38,443 nucleotides of DNA from Streptomyces hainanensis (GTDB taxonomy: Bacteria; Actinomycetota; Actinomycetes; Streptomycetales; Streptomycetaceae): NCBI RefSeq assembly GCF_004348415.1, contig NZ_SMKI01000008.1, positions 1 through 38,443 of the forward strand, given 5' to 3'. Shown piece by piece: positions 2,692-22,046 of the stretch. The notes beneath the pieces are model-generated. The model saw only the letters and a program-made list of their open reading frames with translations. It was not told the DNA's origin and did not search any database. How positions within the stretch are numbered: the stretch's first letter is position 1; each line of letters starts with the position of its first letter. The position numbers and the translations under genes were made by a program.

Positions 2692-2928
2692 GTGCGCGCT
2701 CACTTCCTGGGTAAGGACCCCGAGTCCATGGAGGGCGAGTCCCCCACCCTGTTCGCCACCGACCGCACCGACCGCGTAACGTACATCGCGCAGGGATGGA
2801 AGGTCACCGACCCCCAGGTGCTCGCCGACGTCGGCCCGGTGCCCGACCACGAGACCCTGATCGAAATCCCGGAGGAAGTCCTCAAAATGTACGCCCGTCG
2901 CTACCTGGAGCGGGAGGGAGAGCTCTGA
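2692..2928 (+). CDS. Small conserved unknown protein upstream of the DUF6879 gene
   Basis: This 78-residue acidic protein starts with GTG at 2692 behind a GGAAGGA-like site. I do not recognise a domain. It contains a segment with alternating charged residues and a YIAQGWKV stretch, and ends in a helix-like KMYARRYLEREGEL. It is followed after two bases by the TTG start of the DUF6879 gene, so the two are almost certainly cotranscribed. The position between two XRE systems suggests it belongs to the second one (DUF6879 plus XRE). No membrane segment or signal peptide is seen. Confidence 0.65.
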   Translation: MRAHFLGKDPESMEGESPTLFATDRTDRVTYIAQGWKVTDPQVLADVGPVPDHETLIEIPEEVLKMYARRYLEREGEL

Positions 2929-2930
2929 GC

Positions 2931-3446
2931 TTGCTCATCGGGGACGACTTCAGCAAGCTGTTCCGCACCTTCGAGCACACGGCGTTCCGCTTGGAGGTGC
3001 GGGAGAGCTATAACGCACCGCGTGAGGTCGAGTCATTCCGACGGTTCCGAGCTGGCGAGCCGGTTGACTTGTCATGGGCCGAGACCTGGTTCAGCATGAT
3101 TCGCCAGGCGACCGCGGAGGGCCGGCGCTTCGCACGAGTGCGCGTCGTGAGCGTGCCACTCTCGGACTACAGCCGCTTCGGCCTATGGGCGGCTCACCAC
3201 ACCTGCGATGCGGGCGAGGACATTCGCTATCTTCCCCGTGATGTAGCCGAGCGGCTTGATCTACCCCATCATGACTACTGGCTGTTCGACTCACGCAAAT
3301 TGGTGCGGATGCACTTCGATGAAGCCGACAAGTTTCAGGGCGGCGAGATCATTATGGATACCGCCGAGATCGTACAGCACAACCATTGGCGCGATGTAGC
3401 CCGGCACCACGCCATTCGACGGGACGATTTTGAGGCCAAGGTCTAG
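2931..3446 (+). CDS. DUF6879 family protein
   Basis: This protein of about 171 residues matches the DUF6879 layout known from actinobacterial regulator clusters: an N-terminal FSKLFRTFEHTAFRLEVR, a central segment RFARVRVVSVPLSDYSRFG, and a C-terminal YWLFDSRKLVRMHFDEA. I chose TTG at 2931 because conserved-looking sequence begins there and a GGGAGGG lies about ten bases upstream; the open frame extends upstream to 2796 only as the shadow of the preceding gene. Its stop overlaps the start of the following XRE gene by 17 bases, so the two are a unit. Codon use is more relaxed than in the flanking core genes (many A/T third positions), consistent with acquired DNA. The biochemical function is unknown. 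Confidence 0.75.
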   Translation: MLIGDDFSKLFRTFEHTAFRLEVRESYNAPREVESFRRFRAGEPVDLSWAETWFSMIRQATAEGRRFARVRVVSVPLSDYSRFGLWAAHHTCDAGEDIRYLPRDVAERLDLPHHDYWLFDSRKLVRMHFDEADKFQGGEIIMDTAEIVQHNHWRDVARHHAIRRDDFEAKV

Positions 3447-4305
3447 TGGTTCGAGCGGGGTCGAGGAAGCCAGAGGCGCCCTAGGTCAACGACTCCGCGA
3501 GCTCCGCCGTCAAGCGCACCTCAACGGCAAAGAGCTTGCGGAGTCGTTGTCGTGGCAGCCATCGAAGGTCAGCAAGATTGAAAACGGCAAGCAGACGCCC
3601 ACCAACGACGACATCAAGGCGTGGACGCGGGCAACGAACGCCGAGCCCGAGACAGAAGCCCTCCTAGCCTCGCTGCACACGCTTGAGGTCCAACATGCTG
3701 AGTGGCAACGAGTACTCAAGGCCGGGATGGTCGGCCACCAGCTTGAGCTGTCCGAGCAGGACGCCAGGACCAAGCTGTATCGGTCGTTCGAGCCGGCCGT
3801 AGTGCCTGGGTTACTTCAGACAGCCGAGTACGCGCGCGCGTTGTTCTCAAGGGCCGTCACAGTACATCGGGTGCCCAACGACGTTAGTGATGCCGTGGCA
3901 AAAAGGATGCTACGGCAAGAGATGTTGTATCGCGCCGACAAAGCGTTTCACTTCGTCATCACCGAGGGGACGCTCCGCAACAGGGTTTGTTCGGTAGACA
4001 TCCTACTTGGACAACTTGACCGCCTGGTTTCGCTGACCTCACTGCGGAACGTGCGTCTTGGAGTCATCGGGTACGAAACACAGTACGTTGTCGATCCTCG
4101 TCACGGCTTCATGCTGTACAACTCCGAACTCGTGCGGGTCGAGACTTACTCCGCCGAGCTGAACCTTCGGCAGCCACACGAGATCCATCTGTACACATCG
4201 ACGTTCGAGAAATTGGCTGCCGTCGCCAGCTACCGCGGGGCTGCGCGGGCGATCATCAACCGGGCCATCCATGACCTGACGCCTGACCAGCCCGAGGACG
4301 GCTAA
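3430..4305 (+). CDS. XRE-family regulator with DUF5753, second copy
   Basis: This protein of about 291 residues has an XRE helix-turn-helix at about residues 17-72, with the recognition segment around WQPSKVSKIENGKQT, and a DUF5753 (Scr1) domain recognisable from VPGLLQTAEYARALF near residue 125 and from the LRNVRLGVIGYET segment. The only reasonable start is the TTG at 3430 inside the end of the DUF6879 gene; no ATG precedes the HTH in frame. Unlike the first XRE gene, it lacks a DUF397 partner and instead follows DUF6879. It lies immediately upstream of the radical SAM operon with a 175-base gap that holds repeat elements, so it is the prime candidate regulator of that operon. Its base composition is lower in GC than its surroundings. 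Confidence 0.87.
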   Translation: MRPRSSGSSGVEEARGALGQRLRELRRQAHLNGKELAESLSWQPSKVSKIENGKQTPTNDDIKAWTRATNAEPETEALLASLHTLEVQHAEWQRVLKAGMVGHQLELSEQDARTKLYRSFEPAVVPGLLQTAEYARALFSRAVTVHRVPNDVSDAVAKRMLRQEMLYRADKAFHFVITEGTLRNRVCSVDILLGQLDRLVSLTSLRNVRLGVIGYETQYVVDPRHGFMLYNSELVRVETYSAELNLRQPHEIHLYTSTFEKLAAVASYRGAARAIINRAIHDLTPDQPEDG

Positions 4306-4370: not shown

Positions 4371-4393
4371 GCTTGCAAGCAATAGCTAGCAAT
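4371..4393. promoter_or_regulatory. Palindrome and helical-turn direct repeat before the rSAM operon
   Basis: GCTTGCAAGC (4371-4380) is a perfect 10-bp palindrome. It runs into a direct repeat of AGCAAT at 4378-4383 and 4388-4393, one helical turn (10 bp) apart. The AT-rich block is in the gap between the XRE gene and the rSAM gene, about 90-110 bases before the GTG start. I read it as a candidate operator or promoter region for the operon; no convincing -35/-10 pair was assigned. Confidence 0.4.
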
Positions 4394-4480
4394 TTGCTTT
4401 TCAGCTCCGATACTCCTTCCTACTCTCCCGTCAGGGACGCCGAACCGCGTCCGTCCTCAAGGGATTCGGGAGTCAGCCAG

Positions 4481-5641
4481 GTGGTCACCCATGTTGCCCT
4501 GCTGAGCAGGGATCAGATCGATCAACTACCGGAGCGCGCCCGCGAAGTCGTGGAGTACCGCAAGAGCGGCCTCAGCCTGAACCACATCCAGGGTTGCCCG
4601 CTGGACTGCGCGTACTGTATCCGGCACACCTACGGCCTGTGGGACCAGCGGGTACCGCGAGCGCTCATGTCCGATGCCCAGGCCGTCGAAGAGCTCGTGA
4701 CTCATCGGTACTTCCAGCCGCACGTGACCCCGGTACAGGTGTTCAACCGGGCCACGGACCCGTTCCTGCCGGTCGTCCGGCCGCACACCCTCGCTGTGCT
4801 GGAAGACCTGGACGAGCTCGGGCTGACCAATCACGTCCTGATCATCACGCGGCACCAGATGAAGCCGGAAGACATCGAGCGCCTGAACCAGCTTCGGTAC
4901 CTGAAAGTGACACTGCTGTTCACCTACTCCGGCATCGAGAACTCGGACATCGAGCCTTATCCGTCGCATGTGGCCGCCGAGTCACTCAAGCTCATGAGCA
5001 GGCCGGCGCATCGCCGGTATCGGACAGTTCTGTACTGGCGTCCGCTGGTGCCTGGTCTCAACGACTCACCGGAACACCTCGATTCGGCGTACCGGCTGGC
5101 TGCTCACGCCGACGCGACAGTGTTCACTGGCCTCTTCTACCGGAACGAGATCGCGGACTACTACAAGGCGAACGGCTTGCCCGAGCCGTACGACGACACC
5201 GCGCGCCGCAAGATCGTGCCCGAGACGCTGGAACAGCGCGTGCTCGCCACGTTCGACGCCGCAACCCCGTTGTTCCGTAAGACCTCGTGCGCGGTCGCCT
5301 ACGCGCATGGTCTGCCGGACTACAACGGCCACTACGGCATTGGGCACGAGCTGTGCGATATCTGCCCGTTGAGTCAGCTTGAGCTCTGCGCCAATGCCCA
5401 TCGCCCCCCGTCACCCGAGCGGTTGCGGGAGGTCGCCAGCACCTTGCCCGAGGCTCGTGGTCTTGTGGTCGTGGACATCACCGAGCGGGCGGCCGTGGTG
5501 TCTGGCCTGGAGATCGAGCAGCCGCGCTACTACCTGCAACACTCACTCGGCTTCCAGGTGCACGACGCGCGCCACCCGCACCGCGAACGTCGGCATGGTC
5601 GCGCCGACATCGGATGGAAGGACGAGAGGCAAGATGACTGA
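4481..5641 (+). CDS. SplB-like radical SAM enzyme
   Basis: This protein of about 386 residues carries the radical SAM cluster motif CxxxCxxC at residues 39-46 (CPLDCAYC), directly after NHIQG. The following NRATDPFLP, HVLIITRHQM and RPLVPGLNDSPEHL segments match the general layout of COG1533 (spore photoproduct lyase and relatives). A second cysteine cluster lies near the C-terminus (C292, C295, C303 in CDICPLSQLELC, perhaps with an earlier Cys near 270), which may bind an auxiliary Fe-S cluster. I placed the start at GTG 4481, with CGGGAG eight bases upstream; an in-frame TTG at 4328 has no support. The gene overlaps the exonuclease gene by eight bases. The family makes a 5'-deoxyadenosyl radical from SAM; the substrate is unknown, but the nuclease and nucleotide kinase neighbours point to nucleic acid or nucleotides. 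Confidence 0.83.
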   Translation: MVTHVALLSRDQIDQLPERAREVVEYRKSGLSLNHIQGCPLDCAYCIRHTYGLWDQRVPRALMSDAQAVEELVTHRYFQPHVTPVQVFNRATDPFLPVVRPHTLAVLEDLDELGLTNHVLIITRHQMKPEDIERLNQLRYLKVTLLFTYSGIENSDIEPYPSHVAAESLKLMSRPAHRRYRTVLYWRPLVPGLNDSPEHLDSAYRLAAHADATVFTGLFYRNEIADYYKANGLPEPYDDTARRKIVPETLEQRVLATFDAATPLFRKTSCAVAYAHGLPDYNGHYGIGHELCDICPLSQLELCANAHRPPSPERLREVASTLPEARGLVVVDITERAAVVSGLEIEQPRYYLQHSLGFQVHDARHPHRERRHGRADIGWKDERQDD

Positions 5642-6215
5642 CTGGACGAGCGTGAGCTTCGTGGTCGTGGACGTCGAGGGCAACGGCCAGCAGCCGCCGG
5701 ACCTGGTGGAGGTGGCCGCCGTACCGATCGTTGGCGGAGTCATCGGGGAGCCGGTGAGCTGGCTGGTTCGTCCGGAGTCGCCTATCAAGTTCTACGCCAC
5801 CAGGATTCACGGCCTGACCAACCAGGACGTTGCCGACTGCCCGACCTTCGAGACAGTCAAGGTGGATGTCCTTCACGCCTTGTCGCACCCGGCGCTCATC
5901 GCGCACAACGCCCACGTCGACCTGGACGTCCTCCAGCGGAAGATGACCGGCTGGGAACCGCCGGAGGTCTTCGACACGCTCAAGCTCGCCCGCCGGTTGG
6001 TGCCTGGTCAACGCGGTTACCGGCTTGGTGAATTGGTCGAGGCGTTCGGCCTCGCCGATGGTCTGCCGGACGACCTCTCGCCCCACCGTGCGACCTACGA
6101 CGCGCTGGTTGCCGCCCGGCTGTTCGTCCTGCTCGCCACCAAGGCGCACGACTTGGAAGAACTGCGCAGCCAGCGACCAGGAGAGGGCGAGGATGAACAT
6201 CCGGCGCTCTTCTGA
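5634..6215 (+). CDS. DnaQ-like 3'-5' exonuclease (DEDDh)
   Basis: This 193-residue protein has all five DEDDh catalytic positions: Exo I as VVDVEGNG with D13 and E15, Exo II in AHNAHVDLDVL near residue 90-97, and Exo III as HRATYD near residue 155. Its length is that of a bare exonuclease domain, like DNA polymerase III epsilon or ExoX-type proteins, without a polymerase-binding tail. It starts at ATG 5634 within the end of the radical SAM gene and ends 23 bases inside the kinase gene, so all three genes are translationally coupled. Family members remove nucleotides from the 3' end of DNA or RNA using two metal ions. Its pairing with a SplB-like enzyme and a dNMP kinase suggests damage or modified-nucleotide processing; that is inference. 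Confidence 0.9.
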   Translation: MTDWTSVSFVVVDVEGNGQQPPDLVEVAAVPIVGGVIGEPVSWLVRPESPIKFYATRIHGLTNQDVADCPTFETVKVDVLHALSHPALIAHNAHVDLDVLQRKMTGWEPPEVFDTLKLARRLVPGQRGYRLGELVEAFGLADGLPDDLSPHRATYDALVAARLFVLLATKAHDLEELRSQRPGEGEDEHPALF

Positions 6216-6834
6216 CCACCACCGCGGCTTGTTCGTCAGCGTCGACGGGCCGAGCGGCGCCGGGAAGTCCACGATCGTGCACCACCTGGCGCAACTGCTC
6301 GTGGCCGCCGGCGAATACGTTCACACCACCGCGGAGCCCAGCGACGGCCCTATCGGCGCACTATGCCGCGAGGTGACCGAGTCGACCACCGGACACGCCC
6401 TGGCCTGCTTGTACGCAGCTGACCGCTACCACCACCTTCAGGCGGAGGTCCGGCCGAACCTCGAAGTCGGCCGCATGGTCCTGAGTGACCGCTACATCCC
6501 GTCCGGCCTGGTAATGCAGCGCTTCGACGGCGTTGATCCGGCCTTCCTCTGGCGCGTGAACGCCGAGGCTGACCGGCCCGACCTGGCCGTGATCCTGGAA
6601 GCTGCCCCCGAGGTCATCGCGGAGCGGCTGAGCGAACGCGGCCCGCATAACCGCTTCCAGATCTCGCCCGGCAGCAGTCACGCCGAGGTCCGCTTTTACC
6701 GGCCGGCCACTGAGCGGTTGATCCAAGCCGGTTTCGACGTGCTGCGGGTGGACGTGAACCACCTGCCTCCCGAGCAGTCCGCAGCGCTCATCCGTGACCG
6801 CCTGCTCACCTTCTTCGCTTCCGCTGCGGGGTGA
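6193..6834 (+). CDS. Thymidylate-kinase-like nucleotide kinase
   Basis: This 213-residue protein has a Walker A loop GPSGAGKS at residues 19-26, the DRY-type motif LSDRYIPSGLVMQ near residue 96 that is typical of dTMP kinases, and the usual family length. A dTMP kinase converts dTMP to dTDP using ATP. An actinomycete normally has a housekeeping copy elsewhere, so this operon copy may be specialised, perhaps for a modified nucleotide. The ATG at 6193 follows a GAGGGCGAGG site located inside the exonuclease gene, with a 23-base overlap. It is the last gene of the operon and is followed by a rho-independent-type hairpin. Confidence 0.87.
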   Translation: MNIRRSSDHHRGLFVSVDGPSGAGKSTIVHHLAQLLVAAGEYVHTTAEPSDGPIGALCREVTESTTGHALACLYAADRYHHLQAEVRPNLEVGRMVLSDRYIPSGLVMQRFDGVDPAFLWRVNAEADRPDLAVILEAAPEVIAERLSERGPHNRFQISPGSSHAEVRFYRPATERLIQAGFDVLRVDVNHLPPEQSAALIRDRLLTFFASAAG

Positions 6835-6884: not shown

Positions 6885-6940
6885 TCGGCCGTCACCGTTC
6901 CCCCCGAGAAGGAGCGGTGACGGCCGAAGAAACGTTTTTT
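6885..6940 (+). terminator. Stem-loop with T-tract after the kinase gene
   Basis: A perfect 13-bp stem pairs 6885-6897 (TCGGCCGTCACCG) with 6915-6927, with a 17-base loop, followed by six T residues at 6935-6940. It ends the rSAM operon on the plus strand and may also serve the convergent P450 gene, which stops at 6955. A smaller GTGCTC/GAGCAC hairpin precedes it at 6862-6876. Confidence 0.75.
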
Positions 6941-6954
6941 CGCCTTATCGGCGG

Positions 6955-8169
6955 TCAGGCCAGATAGACCGGGATCTCCGCGTTGCCCAACGAGATCAGC
7001 GAGTCGACCTGCCGCAGCTCGGTCTTCGCCAGCCGCATCGCCGGGAAGCGGTCGAAGAGCGCCGGCAGCGCGGTGCGGGCCTCCAGGCGCGCCAGTGGGG
7101 CGCCCAGGCAGTAGTGCGCGCCGTGGCCGAAGGCCAGGTGCTCGCCGGCCGGCCGGGTGATGTCGAAGCGGTCCGCGGTCGGGCCGTGCTGCTCGGGGTC
7201 GGTGCCGGCCGCGAACAGGCCCATCAGGATGGGCTGGTTGGTCTCGATGACGAGGCCGTCCTCGATCTGGATCGGCTCGGTCGCGTAGCGCAGCGGCAGG
7301 TTGGCCACCGAGGGCGCCCAGCGGAGCGTCTCGTCGATCACCGCGTCCCAACTCGCCTCGCCCGAGCGGACCATGGCCAGCTGCTCGGGGTGGGTGAGCA
7401 GCGCGTGCACCGCGTTGCCCAGCAGGTGGACGGTGGTCTCGTGCCCGGCGGTCAGGATGAGCAGCAGGGTGTCGAAGAGCTCTTCCTCGGTGAGCCGGTC
7501 GCCGTCCTCGTCGCGGGTGCCGATCAGGGCGCTGGCCAGGTCGTCGCCCGGGTTCTCGCGCTTCTCGGCCGTCATCTCGCCGAGGATCCGGTAGAGGCTC
7601 TGGTACGCCGTGCCCATCTCCTCGGGGGTGGCCGAGGTGCGGAACAGGAAGTCGACGGAGTGCTGGAACTCGGCCCGCGACTCCTGCGCGAGGCCGTAGA
7701 GCTCACAGATCATCCGGATCGGCAGCGGGTTGGTGAAACCGCCGAAGAGGTCGGCCGGTTGGCCGGCCGGCGTGGCGGCCAGGCCGTCGAGCAGCTCGGC
7801 CGTGATGCTCTCGACCCGCTCCGTCATGGCCACGGTGCGGCGGTGGGTGAAGGCGGGCGCCACCAGCCTGCGCAGCCGGGTGTGGTCCTTGCCGTAGGCG
7901 GTGAACATGTTGTTCGCCGCGACCCAGAGGTAGAGCGACCAGCCCTCGGGTATTCGGCCGGCCTGGAAGTCCGGCCAGTGCTGGCTGGCGTCCTTGGAGA
8001 CCCGGGGGTCGGTGAACAGCCGCTTGGCCACGGCGTGCCGGGTTATGAGCCAGGCCTCGACGCCCCCTGGGAGGGTTATCGGGACTGCGGGGCCGGTGTC
8101 GCGGAAGGCTGCGGACTCGGTTCGGATGTCGCTTCCGCTGGGGTCGATGACTCGAGGTTTGAGGTCCAC
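6955..8169 (-). CDS. Cytochrome P450, CYP154-like
   Basis: This protein of about 404 residues has all P450 hallmarks: the I-helix segment LTAGHETTVHLLGNA, the K-helix EXXR as ETLRWAPS, and the heme-binding loop FGHGAHYCLGAPLAR with the cysteine ligand. The N-terminal region with RVSKDASQHWPDF and EGWSLYLWVAANNMFTAYG resembles CYP154 proteins, which in Streptomyces often sit beside CYP157 at conservons. I chose GTG at 8169 with AAGGGA about nine bases upstream; the open frame continues upstream to 8256 only as a shadow. The start lies 94 bases inside the upstream P450 gene in another frame. It is presumably a monooxygenase that needs ferredoxin and reductase from elsewhere; the substrate is unknown. 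Confidence 0.92.
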   Translation of the reverse strand: MDLKPRVIDPSGSDIRTESAAFRDTGPAVPITLPGGVEAWLITRHAVAKRLFTDPRVSKDASQHWPDFQAGRIPEGWSLYLWVAANNMFTAYGKDHTRLRRLVAPAFTHRRTVAMTERVESITAELLDGLAATPAGQPADLFGGFTNPLPIRMICELYGLAQESRAEFQHSVDFLFRTSATPEEMGTAYQSLYRILGEMTAEKRENPGDDLASALIGTRDEDGDRLTEEELFDTLLLILTAGHETTVHLLGNAVHALLTHPEQLAMVRSGEASWDAVIDETLRWAPSVANLPLRYATEPIQIEDGLVIETNQPILMGLFAAGTDPEQHGPTADRFDITRPAGEHLAFGHGAHYCLGAPLARLEARTALPALFDRFPAMRLAKTELRQVDSLISLGNAEIPVYLA

Positions 8170-9416
8170 GGGCTGGTTCCCTTCTGATCCGGGGCGATCG
8201 GCGTGAAGCGGGCGGGCAGGGCGACCAGACCCCGGTGGAAGGGTCCTGGCCGCCACGACAGCTCTTCATAGGGAACCGACAGCGTGATGTCGACCAGCCA
8301 ACTGGTCAGTCGGTCGATGGCGGTGGTCGCGATCATCACGGCCGGCTGCTTGGCCGGGCAGCCGTGCGGCCCGGCGGCGAACGCCAGGTGGGCGCCGGCG
8401 TCCGCCCGCGAGCCGGGCGGCAGTTCGGCGGCGGCTCCCGCGTTGGCCGCGGCGTAGGAGACCAGGACCGGGGTGCCGGCCGGAATCCAGGTGCCGTGCA
8501 GGTCGACGTCACGACGGGGGAAGTGGGTCGAGTAGTTGGCCATCGGCGGGTCGTTCCACAGGACGTCGACGACGGCGTCGGACGAGGAGAGCGAACCGGC
8601 GGACAGCGTGCGGTAGTAGCGCGAGTCGGAGAGCATCCTGGCCAGCGCGTTGCCGATGAGGTTGGAGGTCGGCTCGTGGCCGGCCGTGGTCACCATCAGC
8701 AGCTGCCAGACCAGCTCCTCCTCGGTCAGCTCGGCCGGGTGCTGGAGCAGCCAGGACGTGAGGTCCTCGCGAGGCTGCTCCCGCTTGAGCGTCGTCAGGT
8801 TGCCCATGTAGGCGTTGAGGTCGTTTATGGCCGTGATGGCCGCCTCGGGCGCGCTGGAGTCCATCAGGCTGGTCATCGCCGAGACCAGCCGGGCGCTGTA
8901 GGAGTCCGGCAGGCCGAACAGCTCGTTGAAGATCAGCAGCGGCAGCACCCGGGCGTACTCGCCGATCAGCTCCGCCTCGCCGCGCTGCGCGAAGTTCCGG
9001 ATCAGCCGGTCGGCCGACCTGTGCACCATCTCGCGCAGGTCGTGCGGCTCGATCAGGTCGAGGCTGTCGGTGACCGCCTGCCGGTAACGGGCGTGCACGT
9101 CCCCGTCGTTGAAGAGCAGGTTGGGCCGCCAGGCCATCATCGGCATGATCTGGCTGTCCTGCGGGACGGTGTGCTGCCACACCCGCGGGTCCTTCGAGTA
9201 CGTCTCGGTGTCGTGCAGCACCTCGAGGGCCGCGCGGTAGCTGGTGACCAGGGTGGCGACCACCCCGGGCGCCAGCTCCACCGGGGCACACGCGCCGAAC
9301 TCGCGCAGCCGGGTGTAGACCGCGCGCGGGTTCTCGGCGAAGTCCGGCCCGTAGAGGGGGACCGGGCCCCGGGCGTCGGCCGTTTGCGGTGCGGGCCCCG
9401 GTGTTGGGTGGGTCAC
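8076..9416 (-). CDS. Cytochrome P450, CYP157-like, conservon component lacking EXXR
   Basis: This 446-residue protein keeps the I-helix segment TTAGHEPTSNLIGNAL and a heme loop FAAGPHGCPAKQPA with the cysteine, but the K-helix position reads DVLWNDPP instead of ExxR-W-x-P, so the EXXR motif is missing, and the residue two after the cysteine is Ala instead of Gly. Loss of EXXR is a published property of the CYP157 family, which accompanies cvn operons. It starts with GTG at 9416 in a four-base GTGA overlap with cvnD. The last ~30 residues (Ser/Pro/Ala-rich) lie beyond the usual P450 end and overlap the next P450 gene in a different frame. Catalytic activity is uncertain; a structural or signalling role with the CvnD GTPase is possible. 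Confidence 0.9.
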   Translation of the reverse strand: MTHPTPGPAPQTADARGPVPLYGPDFAENPRAVYTRLREFGACAPVELAPGVVATLVTSYRAALEVLHDTETYSKDPRVWQHTVPQDSQIMPMMAWRPNLLFNDGDVHARYRQAVTDSLDLIEPHDLREMVHRSADRLIRNFAQRGEAELIGEYARVLPLLIFNELFGLPDSYSARLVSAMTSLMDSSAPEAAITAINDLNAYMGNLTTLKREQPREDLTSWLLQHPAELTEEELVWQLLMVTTAGHEPTSNLIGNALARMLSDSRYYRTLSAGSLSSSDAVVDVLWNDPPMANYSTHFPRRDVDLHGTWIPAGTPVLVSYAAANAGAAAELPPGSRADAGAHLAFAAGPHGCPAKQPAVMIATTAIDRLTSWLVDITLSVPYEELSWRPGPFHRGLVALPARFTPIAPDQKGTSPWTSNLESSTPAEATSEPSPQPSATPAPQSR

Positions 9417-10012
9417 GACTGCTCCAGAACGGGAAGGTTCAGCAGATGCTCGGCGAGCCCCAGCAGCGCGGCCAGGGAGGAACTCCGGTCGCGCGCGTCG
9501 CAGGTGATGAGGGGGGTCTCCGGGGCCAGGTCGAGGGCCTGCCGCAGCTCCTCCTCAGGGTACTGGGGCGAGTCGGGGAAGATGTTCAGCGCCACCGCGT
9601 AGCGGATCTCCTGCTCCTCGATCAGCCCCATGACCTCGTAGGAGTCGGCGATGCGCCGGGTGTCGGCCAGTATCAGCGCCCCGAGGGCGCCCTGGGTCAG
9701 GTCCTCCCACAGGGCGTGGAACCGCTTCTGGCCGGGTGTGCCGAAGAGGCAGAGGGCCAGGTCGTCGCTCAACGACATGCGGCCGTAGTCGAGTCCGACG
9801 GTCGTGGTGGTCTTGTCGCGGACCCCCTCCAGATGGTCGACCACCGCGCCGGTGGCGGTCATGACCTCCTCGGTGCGCAACGGCGGGATGTCGGAGAGGG
9901 TGTTGATGATCGTGGTCTTGCCGACGCCGAACGGGCCGCTGACGATGACCTTCACCAGGCGCTGGTCAGGGTTGCGCAGGTAGATGCCACTACTGGAGCG
10001 CTCGGAGTCCAC
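9413..10012 (-). CDS. cvnD: CvnD: small Ras-like GTPase of a conservon
   Basis: This 199-residue protein has the P-loop SGPFGVGKTT near residues 25-34, a switch II-like LCLFGTPGQKRF near residue 80, and a modified G4 region VALNIFPD in place of NKxD. That combination is typical of the ATP/GTP-binding CvnD (MglA-like) proteins. In Streptomyces, CvnA to CvnD form a membrane-associated complex likened to eukaryotic G-protein signalling. It starts with GTG at 10012, 23 bases inside cvnC, and its stop overlaps the CYP157-like gene by four bases. Confidence 0.93.
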   Translation of the reverse strand: MDSERSSSGIYLRNPDQRLVKVIVSGPFGVGKTTIINTLSDIPPLRTEEVMTATGAVVDHLEGVRDKTTTTVGLDYGRMSLSDDLALCLFGTPGQKRFHALWEDLTQGALGALILADTRRIADSYEVMGLIEEQEIRYAVALNIFPDSPQYPEEELRQALDLAPETPLITCDARDRSSSLAALLGLAEHLLNLPVLEQS

Positions 10013-10337
10013 GGATCACCCTTTCAAGGAGCTGCTGGTCTGGCATGCGGTCGTCCTGCGCGGGGGTGGGCGCTCTGACGATCAGCCAGCCCTCGTCGAA
10101 GAGGTCGCTGACCACGACCTTGACGAAACTGACGGGCAGGGAGAGATGGGCGGCCACCTCCGCCAACGGCAGGGCTCCGTCGAGCAGTATCTCCAGCACC
10201 CGCCGACCGGCGGGGGACAGGCTGGCGGGCACCTGGTCGGTAGCCGCGCGCAGCACGGTCAGCCGGTCGAGCACGTTCCGGCTGGGACGGGTACGGCCGC
10301 CGGTCCACACGTACGGCGGAATCAGCCGCCGGTTCAT
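9990..10337 (-). CDS. cvnC: CvnC: DUF742 protein of a conservon
   Basis: This 115-residue protein matches DUF742: an N-terminal RLIPPYVWTGGRT, a central winged-helix-like segment RRVLEILLDGALPLAEVAAHLSLPVSFVKVVVSDL, and a C-terminal QQLLERVIRGLRAL. DUF742 proteins are the invariant third member of conservons and carry a predicted helix-turn-helix. The ATG at 10337 overlaps the cvnB stop (ATGA). The open frame extends upstream to 10859 only because the region is GC-rich; order and overlap fix the start. Confidence 0.92.
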   Translation of the reverse strand: MNRRLIPPYVWTGGRTRPSRNVLDRLTVLRAATDQVPASLSPAGRRVLEILLDGALPLAEVAAHLSLPVSFVKVVVSDLFDEGWLIVRAPTPAQDDRMPDQQLLERVIRGLRALQ

Positions 10338-10771
10338 GCCGGGAAGCCGTCTCCGCCGCCGAGGTCGGAGCGCGGCGGGCTGCCCATGGCCTTGCCCAAC
10401 GTCTGGACCTGCTTCTGCATCTCGTAGCTCACGTTGTCCATGGCCACGTTGGGGCCGGTGAACACGGCGAGATAGGTGTTCTCGGCCGCCGGGATCACGA
10501 ACACGTAGCCCTCGTACGTCTCGACCATCACGAGGCGCAGCAGGGAGCGGCCGCCGAAGTAGGTGTGGCTGGTGCCGCGGCTGGAGGCGAGCAGGGAGGC
10601 GAGCACGGCGGACAGCTTCTCGGCCGTCTCCGCCTCCAGGCCCGAGTGGGCCTCGAAGAAGCCGTCGGCCGTGACCACCATCGCGTGCTGGACGTTGGGG
10701 ATCTCCAGGATGGGTGTCAGGACGAACGACAGGTCGACCTTCGGCCTGCTGACGGGCACTCGGGCATTCAT
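10334..10771 (-). CDS. cvnB: CvnB: roadblock/LC7 protein of a conservon
   Basis: This 145-residue protein has the roadblock/LC7 pattern: a long N-terminal helix region, IPNVQHAMVVTADGFFEAHSG, a helix ending in LASLLASS, and LLRLVMVETYEGYVFVIPA. Roadblock proteins act as regulators or platforms of the cognate small GTPase, here CvnD. The ATG at 10771 overlaps the cvnA stop by four bases. The C-terminal ~30 residues are Gly/Pro-rich and probably flexible. Confidence 0.93.
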   Translation of the reverse strand: MNARVPVSRPKVDLSFVLTPILEIPNVQHAMVVTADGFFEAHSGLEAETAEKLSAVLASLLASSRGTSHTYFGGRSLLRLVMVETYEGYVFVIPAAENTYLAVFTGPNVAMDNVSYEMQKQVQTLGKAMGSPPRSDLGGGDGFPA

Positions 10772-12363
10772 CGGCTATCCCTCTCTGACTGATCCGCATC
10801 ATCTGCGGGGGTGGCGGCGGGCTCCTCGCCGATCTCCGCGCGCCCACGCGCCGTGCCACGCTGCAGCGCGCCCATCCGGGACGCGGCGTCCTCGGGGTCG
10901 CGGTGGTACATGTCGGGCGGCGGCGGGCTCTGCGCCGCGTGCCGGCCCGACCGCTCGGGGCGGCGGTGCCGGCGCTGGGGCAGCCCGGACAGCGTGCCGC
11001 CCGCCTCCGCCTCCGCCGCCGGGTCCGCCGCGTGCGGGTCGTCGACGGCCTCGGGCGCCGGTGCCTGGCTCACCGGCCAGGCGGTCGGCGGCGCCTCGGC
11101 GGGCGGCACGGGGGCCATCGGCGCCGACGGCGCCACCGGGGAGCCGAACGAGGCGGGCGCGAAGCCCAACGGGGCCATCGAGGCCGGGGACTGGGACGAC
11201 GCCGTCCGCATGGTCGGCGGCGCCGGCACGTAGGGCACCGGGGCCGTCGGCAGGTGGGGCGCCGCGCCGGTCGGCGCGGGGCTCGGGGTGATCAGCGAGC
11301 GCGGCGCGTCGCCCGAGACGGCGTGCAGTAGGTCGCCGGGGATGAACAGCACGGCCTTGATGCCCGCGTAGTGCGAGGGCTCGACGGAGACCTTGAAGCC
11401 GAACTGCTTGCAGAGCTGGCCGATGGCCGCGAAGCCGGTGGCCGGCGGGTCGCCGAGCTCGGAGAGGAAGACCTTGGCCTCGCCGGTGAGCAGCCGCCGT
11501 GCCTTGCCGAACTCGTCGGCGTTCATCCCGATGCCCGCGTCGTTCACCACGACGACGGCGCCGTTGTGTGCCTGGTGCAGGCCGACCTCGACCGGCAGCG
11601 AACCGTGCGAGTGGTGCACGGCGTTGGCGAGCAGTTCCGCCACCACGACGGCGACGGACTCGGCGGCCCGGTCGGCGACGGCGACGGCGCGCGGCAGGTG
11701 GTTGTCGATCCGCACCCGGTCGTAGCTCGGGATGCGGGAGCTGGCGCCGAGCACGAGGTCGGGCAGCAGCGTCTTGGTCCGCACGAGGCCGGCGCCGGCG
11801 CCGCAGACCACGCGGGTGGCCTGGAGGCGGCGCAGGATCTGCTCGTTGAGGTAGTCCAGAGCGGCCAGCTTCTCGGCGAGGTCGGGATCGTCGTACTTGT
11901 GCAGCAGTTCGTCCACCGCGGTCTGCATCTGGTAACACATCGTCTGCAGTTTGGTGGTCGCACCGCGCATCGCGGACTGTGCCGCGCCGTCGATCCGGGC
12001 CCGTTCGTCGAGAATCGCCCTGGTCGCCTGGTCGAGGACGGTGTCCAGGGTCGCCCCCGCGGCGCCGCCCGCCAGCTCGGGTTGCAGGGGCCCCGGCACC
12101 CGGATGTGGGGGTGTCGGGAGTTACGGGCCAGGGCGGGCATCCGGGTCTTGGCCAGATGGCCGATCTCGGCCCACATCATCTGCTCGCGCCGCTCGGCCT
12201 CGGACAACCGGCCCCGCAGTACGGCAAGCTCCGCGTCCGCGGTGTCCGCCCTGCGCCGGAGGCCCACGACCATCCGACGTCGGGGTGGCCAGAGGACGGC
12301 GAGGAACACCGCCGCCACCGAGGCCACCACGAGGCACGCCACCGCCGCCGCCGGTATCTGCAT
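10768..12363 (-). CDS. cvnA: CvnA: sensor-kinase-like membrane protein of a conservon
   Basis: This 531-residue protein has a single N-terminal transmembrane segment at about residues 4-25, then a coiled-coil-like region rich in Arg, Ala and Glu (about 32-75), and a GHKL ATPase domain with the N box VVVAELLANAVHHSHG and the G1 box NDAGIGMNADEF near residue 265. No clear histidine phosphoacceptor box is evident, consistent with CvnA proteins being kinase-like but possibly not true histidine kinases. The last ~170 residues are Pro/Ala-rich and likely disordered. It starts with ATG behind CGGGAG at about seven bases and is the first gene of the conservon. The intergenic region upstream is shared with a divergent ABC exporter gene. 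Confidence 0.92.
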   Translation of the reverse strand: MQIPAAAVACLVVASVAAVFLAVLWPPRRRMVVGLRRRADTADAELAVLRGRLSEAERREQMMWAEIGHLAKTRMPALARNSRHPHIRVPGPLQPELAGGAAGATLDTVLDQATRAILDERARIDGAAQSAMRGATTKLQTMCYQMQTAVDELLHKYDDPDLAEKLAALDYLNEQILRRLQATRVVCGAGAGLVRTKTLLPDLVLGASSRIPSYDRVRIDNHLPRAVAVADRAAESVAVVVAELLANAVHHSHGSLPVEVGLHQAHNGAVVVVNDAGIGMNADEFGKARRLLTGEAKVFLSELGDPPATGFAAIGQLCKQFGFKVSVEPSHYAGIKAVLFIPGDLLHAVSGDAPRSLITPSPAPTGAAPHLPTAPVPYVPAPPTMRTASSQSPASMAPLGFAPASFGSPVAPSAPMAPVPPAEAPPTAWPVSQAPAPEAVDDPHAADPAAEAEAGGTLSGLPQRRHRRPERSGRHAAQSPPPPDMYHRDPEDAASRMGALQRGTARGRAEIGEEPAATPADDADQSERDSR

Positions 12364-17202: not shown

Positions 17203-20200
17203 TCACGGCGCGGGCGTCGTCACGGTGAACGGGGTGCCGTCGCCGAGGTGCAGGATGCCCTTGCCCGGCGTGGGCTGCTCGACGGCCGCGCTGCGCGGCA
17301 GCTTGGTGCCGATCAGCTCGCCGACCCGGTGGCTGCTCGGCGAGAGCAGCACGCCGCGCCTGGCCTTCTTGACGTCCACCTGCCAGCCGGAGAAGCCGCT
17401 GCCCAGGTCGGCCTCGTCGCCGCCGAGGATCAGGTAACGGCCCAGCTCGGAGCCCTGGTTGAGGATGGTCTTGAGCTCGTCGCCGGCGTCGCAGCGGCGC
17501 AGGTCCTCGCCGTCGTCCATCACGAAGACGATGGGGTCCGCCAGCGAGGAGGTGCCCATCGCCTCGCGCACCTCCTTGTTGGTGAGGTTGTCGCCGGTGA
17601 ACACCTGCACCACGCCCTCCTGGCCGGCCAGTTCGCGCAGCGGCGAGGGCCGGGGGGCGGCGATGACCAGTCGGATGCCGCGCTTCAGGTAGGACTTGGC
17701 GAGCATCGTCAGCACCGTGGAGCGGCCGGACTTGGCCGGGCCGCCGACGACGAACGCCGGGGTGCCCTGCCCGAGGTCGGGGCCGTAGCCCATCAGCTCG
17801 TCGCCGCCGACGCCGACCAGGCCCCAGAGGCGGGACTCGGAGGCCTCCGGGTCGCGCATCTCCCAGGCGTCCTCGAAGGTGAGCCGGCTGGGCAGCACGT
17901 CGACCCGCAGCGGCCGCTTCGCCCGCGGCACGGCCGCGTCCCGCTCGTTGGCCCAGGCGCCGATGGCCTCCAGGGCGGCGGCCTGGGCCTGCCCCGACAG
18001 TTCGTCGGCGAGTACCGCGACCTGGATCTGGGTGGCGACCTGGTTGCGGATCATCCGGCCGTCCGGGATGTTCTCCGGCACCTTGCGGGCGCTGAGGCCG
18101 ACGTTGCTGTAGTCGCCGCGGTCCGGGAGCCGCAGCGCGTACCGGTCCTCGGTGAGGGTGGCGATCCGGCCGGAGAGCACGGAGCGGTCGCCGGCGATGA
18201 TCAGGTGGATACCGACGCTCGCGCCCTCCCGCATCAGGGTGTACAGCTCGTCGGTCAGGGCGCCGTGGTCGATCTCGCCCAGCGTGTTGCCCCAGCCCTC
18301 CCAGCGGTCGAGGAGCACCACGATGTGCGGCAGCCGGTTCTCCTGGGCCGCCACCGAGCGCTGTTCGCTGATGTCGGCGAGGGCGTCCCTGGCCAGCAGC
18401 TCCTGGCGCCGGTCGAGCTCCTGGCGCAGCCGGCGCAGCAGCCGGCGGACCCGCTCGATCTGGGTGCGGCTGACCACGGCGCCGCAGTTGGGCAGCTTGG
18501 TCAGGGCGTTGAGCGCGCCGTTGCCGCAGTCGATGCCGTAGATGTGCACGTCGGCGGCGGAGTGCACCCAGGCGAGGGAGCCGGCGATGGTGCGGAGCAG
18601 CTGGGAGCGGCCGCTGCGCGGCTGGCCGCCGACCAGCATGTGGCTGAAGGTCTTGAAGTCGATGGCCAGCGACCGCCTGGCCTGCTGCTCGGGCAGGTCC
18701 TCGACGCCGAACGGGGCGGCCCGCAACGCGCCGACCGGAACCGGGTGTTCGAGCTCGGCGAGCAGCGTCTTCTCGGGCAGCGCGGGCAGCCACGGGCTGT
18801 GCTGCTTGGGGTAGCCGAGCTGTTGGTCGGCCTCGATGACGGCGTCGACCAGCACCTTGAGGTCGGTGATCTCCTCCTCCTCGGACTTCTGGCCGGCCGG
18901 GCGCCGCAGTTGGGCGCGGCCCAGGTCGTGCCAGTCGAGGCGGCCGAACCAGGGCCGGGAGATCGTGGTGTCGACGGCGCCGGGGCGGCGGCCGCCGACG
19001 CGTCCCGACTGGAACGGCACGAGGGAGGCGTGGCCGAGTCGGACGTAGGCGCGGCCCGGCGTGGACTTGGCGATGAAGCCGGCGTCGGGCGCGTCGATGA
19101 CGTCCGTGGACTCGCTGCCGTCGGTGACCCGCAGCGCGATCCGCAGGTTGGTGTTGGCGCGGATCTCCGGGGAGACGACGCCGCTGGGCCGCTGGGTGGC
19201 GAGCAGCAGGTGGATGCCGAGCGAGCGGCCTCGCTGAGCGATGTTGACCAGGCCCTTCACGAAGTCCGGCAGTTCGCGGACCATCGAGGCGAACTCGTCG
19301 ATGACGATGAGGAGTCGGGGCAGCGGGGGCAGGCTGCCGGGGTTGCGGCGCAGCAGGTCCTGGTAGTCCTCGATGTCCTTGGCGCCGACGCCGGCGAGGA
19401 TGTGCTCGCGGCGGGTCAGCTCGGCGCCGAGCGACGCCAGGGCGCGCTCCACCAGGTAGTTGTCGAGGTCGGTGACCATGCCGACGGTGTGCGGCAGTTG
19501 CACACAGTCCTTGAACGCGGAGCCGCCCTTGTAGTCGACCAGCACGAACGTCATGTTCTCGGGCGTGTTGGCCACGGCGAGTGAGGCGACGATCGTCTGG
19601 AGCAGCTCGGACTTGCCGGAGCCCGTGGTGCCGGCGATCAGGCCGTGCGGGCCGTCGCGGCGCAGGTCGATGGCGAAGGCGCCGTCGTAGGACTCGCCGA
19701 TGACGGCCTCGGTCGACTGGCCGCCGAGCCGCCAACGGGCGGCGATGGCGCCCGAGGAGGGCGGCTCCATCTCGATGACGTCGAGCAGCCGGCTGGACGA
19801 GGGCAGCGCCGCGTCCTCCGACTCGCCGCTGATGTCGCGGATGGGGGCGAGCGAGCGGGACAGCAGCTCGCACCACTCCGGCAGCACCCAGTCGGGGCGC
19901 ACGCCCCTGATCCGCCAGGCGCCGGCCTGTTCGACGCGCAGCCGGTCGGCGACCTGGGTGAGGGTGGAGCTGGCGGGCTGGCCCATGCCGGGCGTCGGCG
20001 GGCCGGCGGCGGGGGCGCCGCCCGGGGTGGCGAGGAAGGTGTGGAAGCCGGTGGCGTAGCCGGCCTGGCGCGGGCCGCTGTCGGCGACCCGGTCCGGGTT
20101 GGGCTCGGCGACGACGACGGCCTGGCACTCGCCGGGCAGGAAGCGCTCCTCGTCGTCCAGGCAGATCGCGAACATGGACGCGTCGCGGCCCTCGGTGAGC

Positions 20201-21753
20201 AGCCGGATGACGCCGGGCAGCGAACGCATCCGCCGGGAGCCGTCGAAGACCACGACGATGTCGGGGTCCTTGAAGGTGGTCTGGCCCTTGCTGCGGGCCT
20301 CCTTGCGGGCCTTCTGGCGGGCGTCGAGCAGGGCGGTCAGCTCGGCGATGCGGGCGCCGATGGTCTCGGCGTCGGTGCCGACCAGCACGTTGGTGTTCTG
20401 CTCGGGCAGCGGGCGGGCGTGCGGCAGCCAGCGCACCCAGTTCCAGCTGTGCTGTCCCGAACCGTCGGTGAGGACGAACAGTTGGACGTCGACGTGGCTG
20501 TGCAGCACGGCGATCTGGCCGACCGCCCAGCGGGCGAGGGCGCGCGCCGTGTCGCCCTGGCCGGCGAAGCCGACGACGCCGAGGGTGCGCAGCGGCAGCG
20601 TGATGGGGGCGTCGGCGATCTTCCACAGGACCTGCCGCTTGTGCTCGTCCTGTTCGGGGTCGTTGAGCATGACCTCCGAGTCGAGCTGGGCGGTGCCGAT
20701 GCGGAGCAGCAGATGGTCGTTGTCGGTGCGGCGGCGCTCCCACAGCCGGGTGCGCGGGCCGGTGGCCTGGGCGAGCACGGTGGCCGGGTCGGGCGCGGCG
20801 TGCCGGCGGGCGAACCGCTCGGCGATCAGCGCGGTCCTGGCGTCGGCCTCGACCCTGGCCTTGCGCGCCCCGTACTCGGCGACCTTCTGGGCGTGGGTGA
20901 CGCGGCCCCGCTTCTTGTCCATGAAGTAGTTGCCCAGCAGCATCACGGGGCTGAGGAACGCCAGCGCCAGGAAGTACCAGCGCCCGGTGAAGGACGCCAT
21001 GGCGACGGCGCCGACGATCGGCAGCAGGGCCATCAGCCAGGGCATCGGCCGGCGTTCGCGCTCCCCGGGGGGCCTCGGCAGGGTGAACTTGGTCTCCCGC
21101 TCGGGCGGCAGCAGCCGGGGTGGCCGGTTGTAGTCGAGGCCCGCGCCGTCCTCCGAGACCTTGAGGGCCGCGTTCGGCGGGCCGTACGGGGTGAGTTCGA
21201 ACAGCGAGTCGCCGATGGCGATCTGCTTGCCGAACTTCCAGTCGGCCCGGTCGCCCTCGTCGTGCGTGAACGGCTCGCCGTCGATCAGCGGCTGCGTCTC
21301 GGTGTAGACGGTGACCTTGGCGGTGGCGTCGGCGGCGACGCGCAGCGTGAAGGCGCGTTCCGGCAGGGTCGGGTCCTGGACGCGGACGTGCACGTTCTGG
21401 CCGCTGCCGACCTCGACCTTGCCGACCCCGACGCGGTGCACGGCGCCGGCCGCCGGGCCGCCGACGACCCGCAGTTCGACGGCGCCGGCCGGCTCGCCCG
21501 GCCAACTGCCGGTGGGGTTGTGGAGGCTGACGACGCTGCCCTCGCGCAGCGACGACTGGGCGAGGGTGAGCGAGGGATCCAGATACTCGCCGTTGGCGAA
21601 GAGATGTACGGGCTCGCCGCCATAGCCGCCGGAGCCCACGACCTGCGCGAACTCCGGGGCCAGATCGGCCAGCTGAGTCTCGGCGGCCGCGTCGACCACC
21701 GTGTCGGCGGCGTGTCCCCCCACCGGGTCGACGACTGTCAGCGTCAGACGCAC
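17203..21753 (-). CDS. eccC: EccC-type FtsK/SpoIIIE ATPase of type VII secretion
   Basis: This protein of about 1516 residues has an N-terminal region with FHA-like features (about residues 1-220), two transmembrane segments at about 240-275, and three FtsK/SpoIIIE ATPase domains. The first has an intact Walker A GTTGSGKSEL near residue 705 and Walker B LLIVIDEFASM. The second (GQPRSGRSQLL near 1040) and third (GGPAKSGRSTVL near 1335) have Arg replacing the P-loop Lys, as in EccC proteins where only the first domain hydrolyses ATP. The start is GTG 21753 behind GGGGAGGAG; the open frame extends to 22002 without support. It diverges from a WXG100-like gene, which is the expected substrate. Further Esx machinery (EccB, EccD, EccE, MycP) is not in this window. 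Confidence 0.93.
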   Translation of the reverse strand: MRLTLTVVDPVGGHAADTVVDAAAETQLADLAPEFAQVVGSGGYGGEPVHLFANGEYLDPSLTLAQSSLREGSVVSLHNPTGSWPGEPAGAVELRVVGGPAAGAVHRVGVGKVEVGSGQNVHVRVQDPTLPERAFTLRVAADATAKVTVYTETQPLIDGEPFTHDEGDRADWKFGKQIAIGDSLFELTPYGPPNAALKVSEDGAGLDYNRPPRLLPPERETKFTLPRPPGERERRPMPWLMALLPIVGAVAMASFTGRWYFLALAFLSPVMLLGNYFMDKKRGRVTHAQKVAEYGARKARVEADARTALIAERFARRHAAPDPATVLAQATGPRTRLWERRRTDNDHLLLRIGTAQLDSEVMLNDPEQDEHKRQVLWKIADAPITLPLRTLGVVGFAGQGDTARALARWAVGQIAVLHSHVDVQLFVLTDGSGQHSWNWVRWLPHARPLPEQNTNVLVGTDAETIGARIAELTALLDARQKARKEARSKGQTTFKDPDIVVVFDGSRRMRSLPGVIRLLTEGRDASMFAICLDDEERFLPGECQAVVVAEPNPDRVADSGPRQAGYATGFHTFLATPGGAPAAGPPTPGMGQPASSTLTQVADRLRVEQAGAWRIRGVRPDWVLPEWCELLSRSLAPIRDISGESEDAALPSSSRLLDVIEMEPPSSGAIAARWRLGGQSTEAVIGESYDGAFAIDLRRDGPHGLIAGTTGSGKSELLQTIVASLAVANTPENMTFVLVDYKGGSAFKDCVQLPHTVGMVTDLDNYLVERALASLGAELTRREHILAGVGAKDIEDYQDLLRRNPGSLPPLPRLLIVIDEFASMVRELPDFVKGLVNIAQRGRSLGIHLLLATQRPSGVVSPEIRANTNLRIALRVTDGSESTDVIDAPDAGFIAKSTPGRAYVRLGHASLVPFQSGRVGGRRPGAVDTTISRPWFGRLDWHDLGRAQLRRPAGQKSEEEEITDLKVLVDAVIEADQQLGYPKQHSPWLPALPEKTLLAELEHPVPVGALRAAPFGVEDLPEQQARRSLAIDFKTFSHMLVGGQPRSGRSQLLRTIAGSLAWVHSAADVHIYGIDCGNGALNALTKLPNCGAVVSRTQIERVRRLLRRLRQELDRRQELLARDALADISEQRSVAAQENRLPHIVVLLDRWEGWGNTLGEIDHGALTDELYTLMREGASVGIHLIIAGDRSVLSGRIATLTEDRYALRLPDRGDYSNVGLSARKVPENIPDGRMIRNQVATQIQVAVLADELSGQAQAAALEAIGAWANERDAAVPRAKRPLRVDVLPSRLTFEDAWEMRDPEASESRLWGLVGVGGDELMGYGPDLGQGTPAFVVGGPAKSGRSTVLTMLAKSYLKRGIRLVIAAPRPSPLRELAGQEGVVQVFTGDNLTNKEVREAMGTSSLADPIVFVMDDGEDLRRCDAGDELKTILNQGSELGRYLILGGDEADLGSGFSGWQVDVKKARRGVLLSPSSHRVGELIGTKLPRSAAVEQPTPGKGILHLGDGTPFTVTTPAP

Positions 21754-22046
21754 GGCGCTCCTCCCCGTTCCTGCCCTACGTTGCCTGCTTGTCCGTGATG
21801 GACATGCCCATAATTGCATCCCCCGGCACGGCGGGATTCGGGCGTGCACGACTGCAACCGCCGCGGCCCGCCTCGCGTCCAGGCTGGTGACGATGGCGCG
21901 GGGGACGACCCTTGACGGGGGTGTCGGCTCGTGCTTCCCGGGCATAGGCTGCCAGGTGCGTGGTTGTGCCGGGAAGTCGGTGCACCGCGTCAGACAGAGC
22001 AATCCCGCGGGGGGACGGGCCTCCGCAGAACGAGGAGGGGGTCTTC

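Follow-up and report, generated by a model that had tools for sequence, protein, structure and literature searches.

A putative mobile cassette of radical SAM enzyme, DEDDh exonuclease and nucleotide kinase in Streptomyces hainanensis, with a possible role in making altered pyrimidine nucleotides

Among described systems, the closest in composition to the locus reported here is thmABC of Photorhabdus asymbiotica, a three-gene cluster of a radical S-adenosylmethionine (SAM) enzyme, a kinase and a nucleoside triphosphatase (NTPase) that makes 4'-thiothymidine according to its report, with thmC, the NTPase gene, giving resistance on its own (PMC12691670). Our subject is a three-gene cassette of the soil bacterium Streptomyces hainanensis that encodes a radical SAM enzyme (rSAM), a DEDDh 3'-5' exonuclease and a thymidylate-kinase-like nucleotide kinase; it lies in a stretch of 38,443 nucleotides (contig NZ_SMKI01000008.1, positions 1 to 38,443), which was analysed as a whole and is called the window. 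Compared by gene composition only, both are minimal three-gene sets in which an rSAM and a nucleoside kinase accompany a third gene able, in the cassette putatively, to protect its owner, and the flanks of both vary between species, whereas the third gene is an NTPase in thmABC and a DEDDh exonuclease in the cassette. The report on thmABC places it only in gammaproteobacteria (Enterobacterales and Vibrio) (PMC12691670), whereas no gammaproteobacterium was found among the 39 plasmid records that matched the cassette.

Spore photoproduct lyase (SplB) shares with the cassette rSAM the radical SAM core fold and the CxxxCxxC motif, whereas the cassette enzyme has four further invariant cysteines in its C-terminal part and its structural score for SplB is tied with those for other rSAM families. 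Viperins are linked to a nucleotide kinase, and nsp14 of SARS-CoV-2 belongs to the DEDDh superfamily. One study reports that nsp14 is a 3'-5' exoribonuclease and removes the viperin product ddhCMP from RNA 3' ends (PMC9415739); the likeness of the cassette to viperin and prokaryotic viperins would lie in rSAM chemistry on a nucleotide and in a product removable by a 3'-5' exonuclease. The cassette rSAM differs from them in a viperin score (Z 12.9) tied with those of other families, in the extra C-terminal cysteines and in having no PADLOC match. MilA has a relative with the same selectivity residues in a sister branch of the cassette, whereas the window's cassette has no MilA-like gene beside it. 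Another report, PMC10853773, deals with Dnd systems that have a nucleotide kinase domain and not with the cassette. Searches of open-licence literature, accessible mostly at title and abstract level, found no description of this composition, the nearest being the analogous 4'-thiothymidine cluster, in agreement with an earlier note on this DNA, written from the sequence alone, which knew of no such system.

A search of genome contigs with the rSAM yielded 123 related stretches, and the analysis retained the 80 best loci. Together with eight plasmid loci (of the 39 matching plasmid records), eight loci on viral contigs and the window, they form a set of 97 loci (labelled L and a number), over which neighbours were counted within 7 kb on the same strand; genes were called with a home-made codon model trained on rSAM genes, and a distant homologue (L090, 26 percent identity) was included in the counts. 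Although rSAM alone had been used for retrieval, an exonuclease homologue directly followed the rSAM gene in 79 of the 80 loci, L044 being the exception. Over the full set, the exonuclease was present in 94 loci (missing from L044, L086 on a Nostoc plasmid and the distant homologue L090), an aldo/keto reductase in 42, DUF6879 in 37, a nucleoside-diphosphate (NDP) kinase in 27 and a thymidylate synthase (TS)-like protein in 26, and TS-like and DUF6879 genes never occurred together (0 of 97). Where genes had been called, a possible exonuclease start lay at most 30 nt from the rSAM stop in 78 of 80 loci and the kinase start at most 40 nt from the exonuclease stop in 57 of 65. Six of the eight exceptions (L003, L004, L005, L015, L016 and L017) have an aldo/keto reductase gene between exonuclease and kinase. 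The earlier note had described the window's three genes as one overlapping unit and had named scarcity of this neighbourhood elsewhere as a finding that would undo its reading. All three open reading frames (ORFs) are intact, their coordinates, frames and overlaps were checked exactly (Table 1), and the three families proved to be true neighbours across phyla. These comparisons indicate that the rSAM, exonuclease and kinase genes are a conserved, mobile cassette.

Hosts include many Actinomycetota, Myxococcus and metagenome-assembled genomes (MAGs) of Acidobacteriota, Nitrospirales and Obscuribacterales, and the cassette was also found on plasmids of Sinorhizobium, Rhizobium, Mesorhizobium, Agrobacterium, Roseibium/Labrenzia, Gluconobacter and Nostoc. 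The loci span Actinomycetota, Myxococcota, Nitrospirota and Acidobacteriota, besides the alphaproteobacterial and Nostoc plasmids. When 396 Actinomycetota genomes were sampled, the one that contains the window was the sole carrier of the cassette, and none of 11 other genomes listed under the same genus had it (four candidates scored per genome), and 296 genomes of the phylum of L044 yielded only L044's own copy (at most six candidates scored per genome); this rarity is indicative only, because few candidates per genome were scored. The G+C content of the five cassette genes, those for the regulator and its partner included, is 60-68 percent, compared with 71 percent for the window. The patchy distribution and this difference in G+C content point to horizontal transfer of the cassette. 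Near-identical cassettes were seen in L061, a MAG labelled Acidobacteriota, and L064 (Nitrospirales), with end branches of 0.02 and 0.01, reflecting either recent transfer or mis-binning.

The exonuclease matched RNase_T (PF00929, E 1.4e-20), and its residues D13, E15, H151 and D156 were each kept in 93 or 94 of 94 aligned sequences, with position 96 being Asp in 75 and Glu in 19. With Exo I DxE, Exo II D and Exo III HxxxxD all recognisable in the alignment, it is classed as a DEDDh enzyme, and the complete set of catalytic residues reported earlier was borne out. The P-loop (GPSGAGKS) and DRY motif reported for the window kinase are likewise present, and this protein matched PF02223 (E 3.8e-27) and TIGR00041 (101.9 bits, above the cut-off of 83.25). 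In thymidylate kinases (TMKs), the Tyr of DRYxxSxxAYQ sits by the deoxyribose and guards against a 2'-OH; at the position aligned with this Tyr in Thermus TMK, all 33 window-type kinase sequences that could be read (four more were gapped) have one of Met, Val and Ile, the window having Met. The window kinase thus passes the dTMP-kinase family score but lacks the sugar-side Tyr.

An alternative kinase of the cassette, KIN2, was modelled (pLDDT, predicted local distance difference test, 93.1), and the top structural matches of the model were thymidylate kinases (best 4edh, E 1.5e-7), with NadR at rank 6. A kinase was present in 81 of the 97 loci, TMK-type in 37 and KIN2-type in 44, and both together in none. 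Switching between the two types requires one change on the rSAM tree, with 15 rows without a kinase left uncounted; this was a quick tree of 95 rows that drew long-branch warnings, and L090 and L075 were excluded from it and from the Mantel tests. Pairwise distances were correlated between rSAM and exonuclease (r 0.91), rSAM and KIN2 (0.77) and rSAM and TMK (0.62), compared with permutation maxima of 0.10, 0.22 and 0.35, respectively (500 permutations for rSAM-exonuclease).

One branch, mainly actinobacterial, adds a MilA-like TS-superfamily protein and an NDP kinase. The TS-like protein matched MilA (5jnh) at E 1.2e-72, with thymidylate synthases appearing only from 5e-11. An Asp in place of the TS Asn marks cytidylate enzymes, and all 26 TS-like sequences have this Asp. 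MilA, according to its report, is the CMP 5-hydroxymethylase of mildiomycin biosynthesis and prefers CMP through Lys133 and Ala176 (PMC5175136). At these two positions, mapped by alignment, the TS-like sequences have Lys in 26 of 26 and either Ala (22) or Gly (4), by which residues the sister-branch gene is a predicted CMP 5-hydroxymethylase of the MilA kind. A pyrimidine ribonucleotide is a candidate substrate, because the MilA-type residues and the lost kinase Tyr both point to one.

The explanation that we favour, and whose chances we put at about even, is that of a regulated, horizontally moving cassette that would make a toxic or altered pyrimidine nucleotide, with the kinase activating it and the exonuclease providing self-protection; the analogy is with viperin and with the 4'-thiothymidine cluster. 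The rSAM would hold its SAM-binding cluster at C39/C43/C46 and a probable auxiliary Fe-S cluster at C270/C292/C295/C303, and would use radical chemistry to alter a pyrimidine nucleotide, which may be a ribonucleotide. The kinase would phosphorylate the product, and an NDP kinase of the host or of the cassette would convert it to the triphosphate. The analogue would enter growing nucleic acid and block growth of the chain, and the DEDDh exonuclease would protect its owner by stripping the analogue from the owner's 3' ends. Accessory enzymes (the MilA-like CMP hydroxymethylase, NDP kinase, aldo/keto reductase and HD protein) would diversify the product or control nucleotide pools. The target is probably phage replication on the alphaproteobacterial plasmids and could be phage or competitors in Actinomycetota. 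The shared nucleotide pathway suggested in the earlier note is supported in this respect by the adjacency, the TMK fold of the alternative kinase and the MilA-like and NDP-kinase genes, but nothing shows the DNA repair that it offered as one example.

Several findings weigh against this explanation. The structure search of the rSAM yields a generic rSAM core only, and a profile comparison of KIN2 with the window kinase was weak (E 4.5e-4, probability 33 percent). The profile search left 16 of the 97 loci without a kinase, some of them at contig ends and one (L042) with a match by tblastn. With 20 changes required for its label on the rSAM tree, the aldo/keto reductase is not core, and beside the window's own copy of the cassette there is no TS-like, NDP-kinase or aldo/keto reductase gene. 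The window's own flanks look ordinary (cytochrome P450 and HATPase genes), and actinobacterial flanks were not enriched in PADLOC models, with 70 in the flanks and 56 in the controls of 20 loci (120 proteins of 120-1500 aa sampled on either side, out of 204 in the flanks and 290 in the controls, with no sampled control from L137). Substrate, product and target, like the chemistry of the members, are all inferred.

The gene that comes after the core varies between alphaproteobacterial plasmids: it encodes an HD protein in L083, L085, L107, L108 and L109, an aldo/keto reductase in L084, a WYL protein in L106 and a convergent helicase in L087. CBASS, Gabija, anti-phage dGTPase, AAA-helicase pair, Shedu and ABC-three-component genes are among the neighbours. 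At 1e-10, 90 flanking proteins of seven such plasmids drew 222 PADLOC models compared with 80 for 108 control proteins, these figures counting models, several per protein, rather than proteins. Models in the flanks included Cyclase, E1-E2, GajA, GajB, SduA, LmuB, dGTPase and RmrA, and those in the controls AbiEi, SoFic and PDC-M02; we take an A. vitis gene pair as the source of the GajA and GajB matches. Control proteins came from the far side of the same plasmids at a place set by rule ahead of any look at these proteins, although the plasmids had been seen before the rule was fixed. Neither set includes genes of the cassette, cut genes or certain very short ones. The test covered seven of the nine alphaproteobacterial plasmids opened, with L085 (a near-copy of L109) and L110 (with a shortened rSAM) excluded; further near-copies among the 39 plasmid records lay outside it. 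In L110 (9953-12019), on a Roseibium plasmid, IS30 lies directly after the shortened rSAM gene, and no exonuclease or kinase gene was listed.

In the actinobacterial test, flank and control model names were largely alike, and the controls included a PIWI-type system. The defence setting is thus shown for the alphaproteobacterial plasmids only, and a defence island as the general setting was dropped because actinobacterial flanks are not enriched. The idea of anti-phage defence by nucleotide handling, raised in the earlier note, accordingly gained ground on these plasmids and found no support in the actinobacterial loci tested. Among the window proteins, PADLOC gave only DEDDh and PDC-S48 for the exonuclease and PDC-M51B with weak P-loop matches for the kinase, and no known PADLOC defence system was matched by the cassette.

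A more far-reaching version of the favoured explanation, which we regard as possible but doubtful, would make the cassette a new form of bacterial innate immunity, or a chemical weapon turned inward, in which a plasmid-borne rSAM would produce a pyrimidine nucleotide that blocks chain growth, a TMK-fold kinase would load it to its active form and a dedicated DEDDh proofreading exonuclease would guard the host's 3' ends. If this is true, selectivity would lie in who owns the exonuclease, mirroring on the host side the action of nsp14 on the viperin product. If the favoured explanation itself is right, the cassette would be an uncharacterised supplier of natural nucleotide analogues that brings its own resistance enzyme and is widespread, extending from Streptomyces to a rhizobial symbiosis plasmid, and it would connect the fields of nucleoside antibiotics and anti-phage defence. 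The three-gene core is small enough for a direct test, and the rSAM-exonuclease pair can be used for genome mining.

The same enzymes might instead constitute a secreted nucleoside-antibiotic cluster, with the product exported against competitors and the exonuclease serving for self-resistance only. The closest published composition is indeed that of the 4'-thiothymidine cluster, and MilA belongs to mildiomycin biosynthesis (PMC5175136). The position of actinobacterial copies outside defence islands also fits such a cluster, as do the DUF6415 'natural product biosynthesis' genes found near the cassette on three Streptomyces plasmids. However, the alphaproteobacterial copies have CBASS, Gabija and Shedu genes around them and comprise little besides the core, to which an HD protein or aldo/keto reductase may be added. 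No exporter is among the twelve neighbour families of widest occurrence, no systematic exporter search having been made; we consider a secreted antibiotic unlikely.

The identity of the rSAM bears on a further alternative. The CxxxCxxC motif and second cysteine cluster that had been reported for it correspond to C39/C43/C46 (CPLDCAYC) and C270/C292/C295/C303, and each of these seven cysteines is kept in 94 or 95 of 95 relatives (C39/C43/C46 in 94, with one gapped); mean column identity was 62 percent among 42 rSAM sequences. Sequence models matched below threshold, with Pfam Radical_SAM at E 3.2e-4 and 21.4 bits (cut-off 29.5) and scores of about 20 bits for two NCBIfam families, PA0069 and Rv2578c (cut-offs 360 and 430), and a weak PHROG match was to phrog_13321, of unknown function (E 1.2e-6). 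Pfam and NCBIfam hold a SplB family model, but neither library matched one to the rSAM at E <= 1; no PADLOC family matched at E <= 1, so there was no match to the viperin model that PADLOC contains. A sequence search of solved structures found no relative of the rSAM. In the structure search of its AlphaFold2 model (mean pLDDT 89.4), the 50 rows shown were all rSAM structures, with Z scores of 11.2-15.3, among them pyruvate formate-lyase (PFL)-activating enzyme (15.3), spore photoproduct lyase (15.1), NifB (14.0), RlmN (13.7) and viperin (12.9). By its CxxxCxxC motif and core fold, the protein is a member of the radical SAM superfamily. The earlier label 'SplB-like' proved unspecific, because no close family model was found and the core is generic, and a specific SplB identity was dropped, given the missing SplB model match and a Z score of 15.1 compared with 15.3 for PFL-activating enzyme. 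The two best-matching families align up to about residue 268. The C-terminal part may have a SPASM-like relation, since some ranges of the lower rows SkfB, SuiB and anSME (Z 11-13) extend into this part with its four extra cysteines.

The genomes of L025 and L068 (G702 and G712) have two rSAM copies each. The distant homologue in L090 (6010-7125) is without exonuclease or kinase and lies beside MurA-like, glycosyltransferase and NUDIX genes, and other Streptomyces plasmids gave low-identity rSAM matches resembling this case.

A nucleic-acid damage response, in which the rSAM would recognise or reverse a lesion, the exonuclease trim the 3' end and the kinase return the nucleotide to the pool, would agree with the high rank of spore photoproduct lyase among the matches to the rSAM core, and rSAM and exonuclease are the tightest pair by distance correlation. 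Exonuclease and kinase would also suit excision and recycling. However, PFL-activating enzyme, NifB, RlmN and viperin score equally or nearly so, there is no SplB model match, and both the CMP hydroxymethylase with its NDP kinase and the patchy, often plasmid-borne distribution are left unexplained by such a response, which we judge unlikely.

TS-superfamily enzyme, nucleotide kinase and NDP kinase together resemble phage base-modification sets, and the combination of all three in one branch of the cassette could suggest hypermodification of bases in the host's or element's own DNA or RNA, with the exonuclease removing unmodified or wrongly modified ends. The mobile setting would agree with this, as would the eight contigs classed as viral in IMG/VR that carry the cassette (L098-L105), which may be phages or misjudged plasmids. 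Hypermodification is nevertheless improbable, given that the residues of the TS-like enzyme are those of the MilA type for ribonucleotides, that 71 of the 97 loci lack this enzyme, and that none of the 50,697 records of a phage collection matched the rSAM at E 1e-5. Lastly, the substrate of the rSAM might be a peptide or another metabolite, with neighbours linked to it by coincidence or indirectly, and PFL-activating enzyme and the peptide-modifying SkfB, SuiB and anSME are indeed among its structural matches, some reaching the C-terminal part. We regard this as very improbable, given that adjacency to nucleic-acid enzymes is kept across phyla with two alternative kinases in third place.

Table 1. 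Positions of the cassette genes and associated features in the window
Feature	Position	Strand	Remarks
Radical SAM enzyme (rSAM)	4481..5641	+	GTG start, 386 aa; second four-Cys cluster in the C-terminal part
DEDDh 3'-5' exonuclease	5634..6215	+	8-base overlap with the rSAM gene; complete catalytic residues
Thymidylate-kinase-like nucleotide kinase	6193..6834	+	23-base overlap with the exonuclease gene
DUF6879 gene, partner of the XRE regulator	2796..3446	+	PF21806, E 9.4e-56
XRE/DUF5753 regulator of the cassette	3463..4305	+	HTH_31, E 4.8e-13; DUF5753, E 1.1e-31
25-bp operator TTGCAAGCAATAGCTAGCAATTTGC, proposed XRE binding site	4373..4397	+	Pattern comparison; upstream of rSAM
-10-like TACTCT	4421..4426	+	Downstream of the operator; judged by eye; similar hexamers at the corresponding place in many relatives
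17-nt inverted repeat with 9-nt loop, terminator-like	6885..6927		Between convergent genes; T-run 7 nt beyond

The XRE regulator noted earlier in front of the cassette was recovered with both of its domains, together with its DUF6879 partner (Table 1), although the start of the XRE gene is uncertain, with a TTG present at 3430. TTA occurs once in the XRE gene, at codon 117 if numbering starts from 3463, and in none of the other four cassette genes; TTA codons in Streptomyces often indicate bldA control. The operator pattern TTKCN2GMAAN6GMAANTTKC, with at most two mismatches and at most 260 nt upstream of rSAM, was found in 32 of the 37 DUF6879/XRE loci, which include the 10 loci from which it was derived, compared with a mononucleotide-shuffle expectation of 0.02. 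It occurred in one of 43 other loci (L007, near a contig end), and in a hold-out count it was present in 22 of the remaining 27, one of which (L075) is a near-copy of L026. In the 7,991,366-base genome, there was one exact match, at the position given in Table 1, and none to a reversed control pattern. L003, L004 and L005 have extra sequence between XRE and rSAM, yet their operators lie 105-106 nt before rSAM.

Comparison of 31 loci revealed that TTGC/GCAA sites go with Gln or His at one helix-turn-helix (HTH) position in 8 of 9 cases and TTTC/GAAA sites with Pro, Val or Ala at the same position in 22 of 22, although these statistics ignore relatedness and aligned regulator positions 13 and 43 score as high as 36. 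In the window, the covarying residue is the Gln of SWQPSK, which presumably lies in the recognition helix. L003-L006 and L008, which are close to the window by rSAM, have Pro and TTTC where the window has Gln and TTGC, and this difference in both residue and site suggests that regulator and operator changed together. The operator-regulator pair is a possible switch with which to turn actinobacterial copies on. A scan for the sigma-70 consensus found no promoter upstream of rSAM. The stretch from the -10-like hexamer to the rSAM start was considered as a conserved leader hairpin, an idea that was dropped since folds differ between relatives. Of the terminator that the cassette had been said to possess, the inverted repeat and T-run were confirmed, but the output of a terminator scan did not contain this repeat.

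Farther along the window, at 6955-12363 on the minus strand, two P450-like ORFs are followed by a small GTPase-like and a HATPase gene, the Pfam test of the P450-like ORFs having covered 6955-8169; we take this group to resemble a 'conservon'. Farther upstream, at 1542-2602, another XRE/DUF5753 gene precedes a DUF397 gene, and XRE-DUF397 pairs are known as Streptomyces regulators (PMC10364602, PMC6262351). A 1599-aa ORF at 17203-22002 on the minus strand has, by eye, the look of an FtsK/EccC-type ATPase of type VII secretion.

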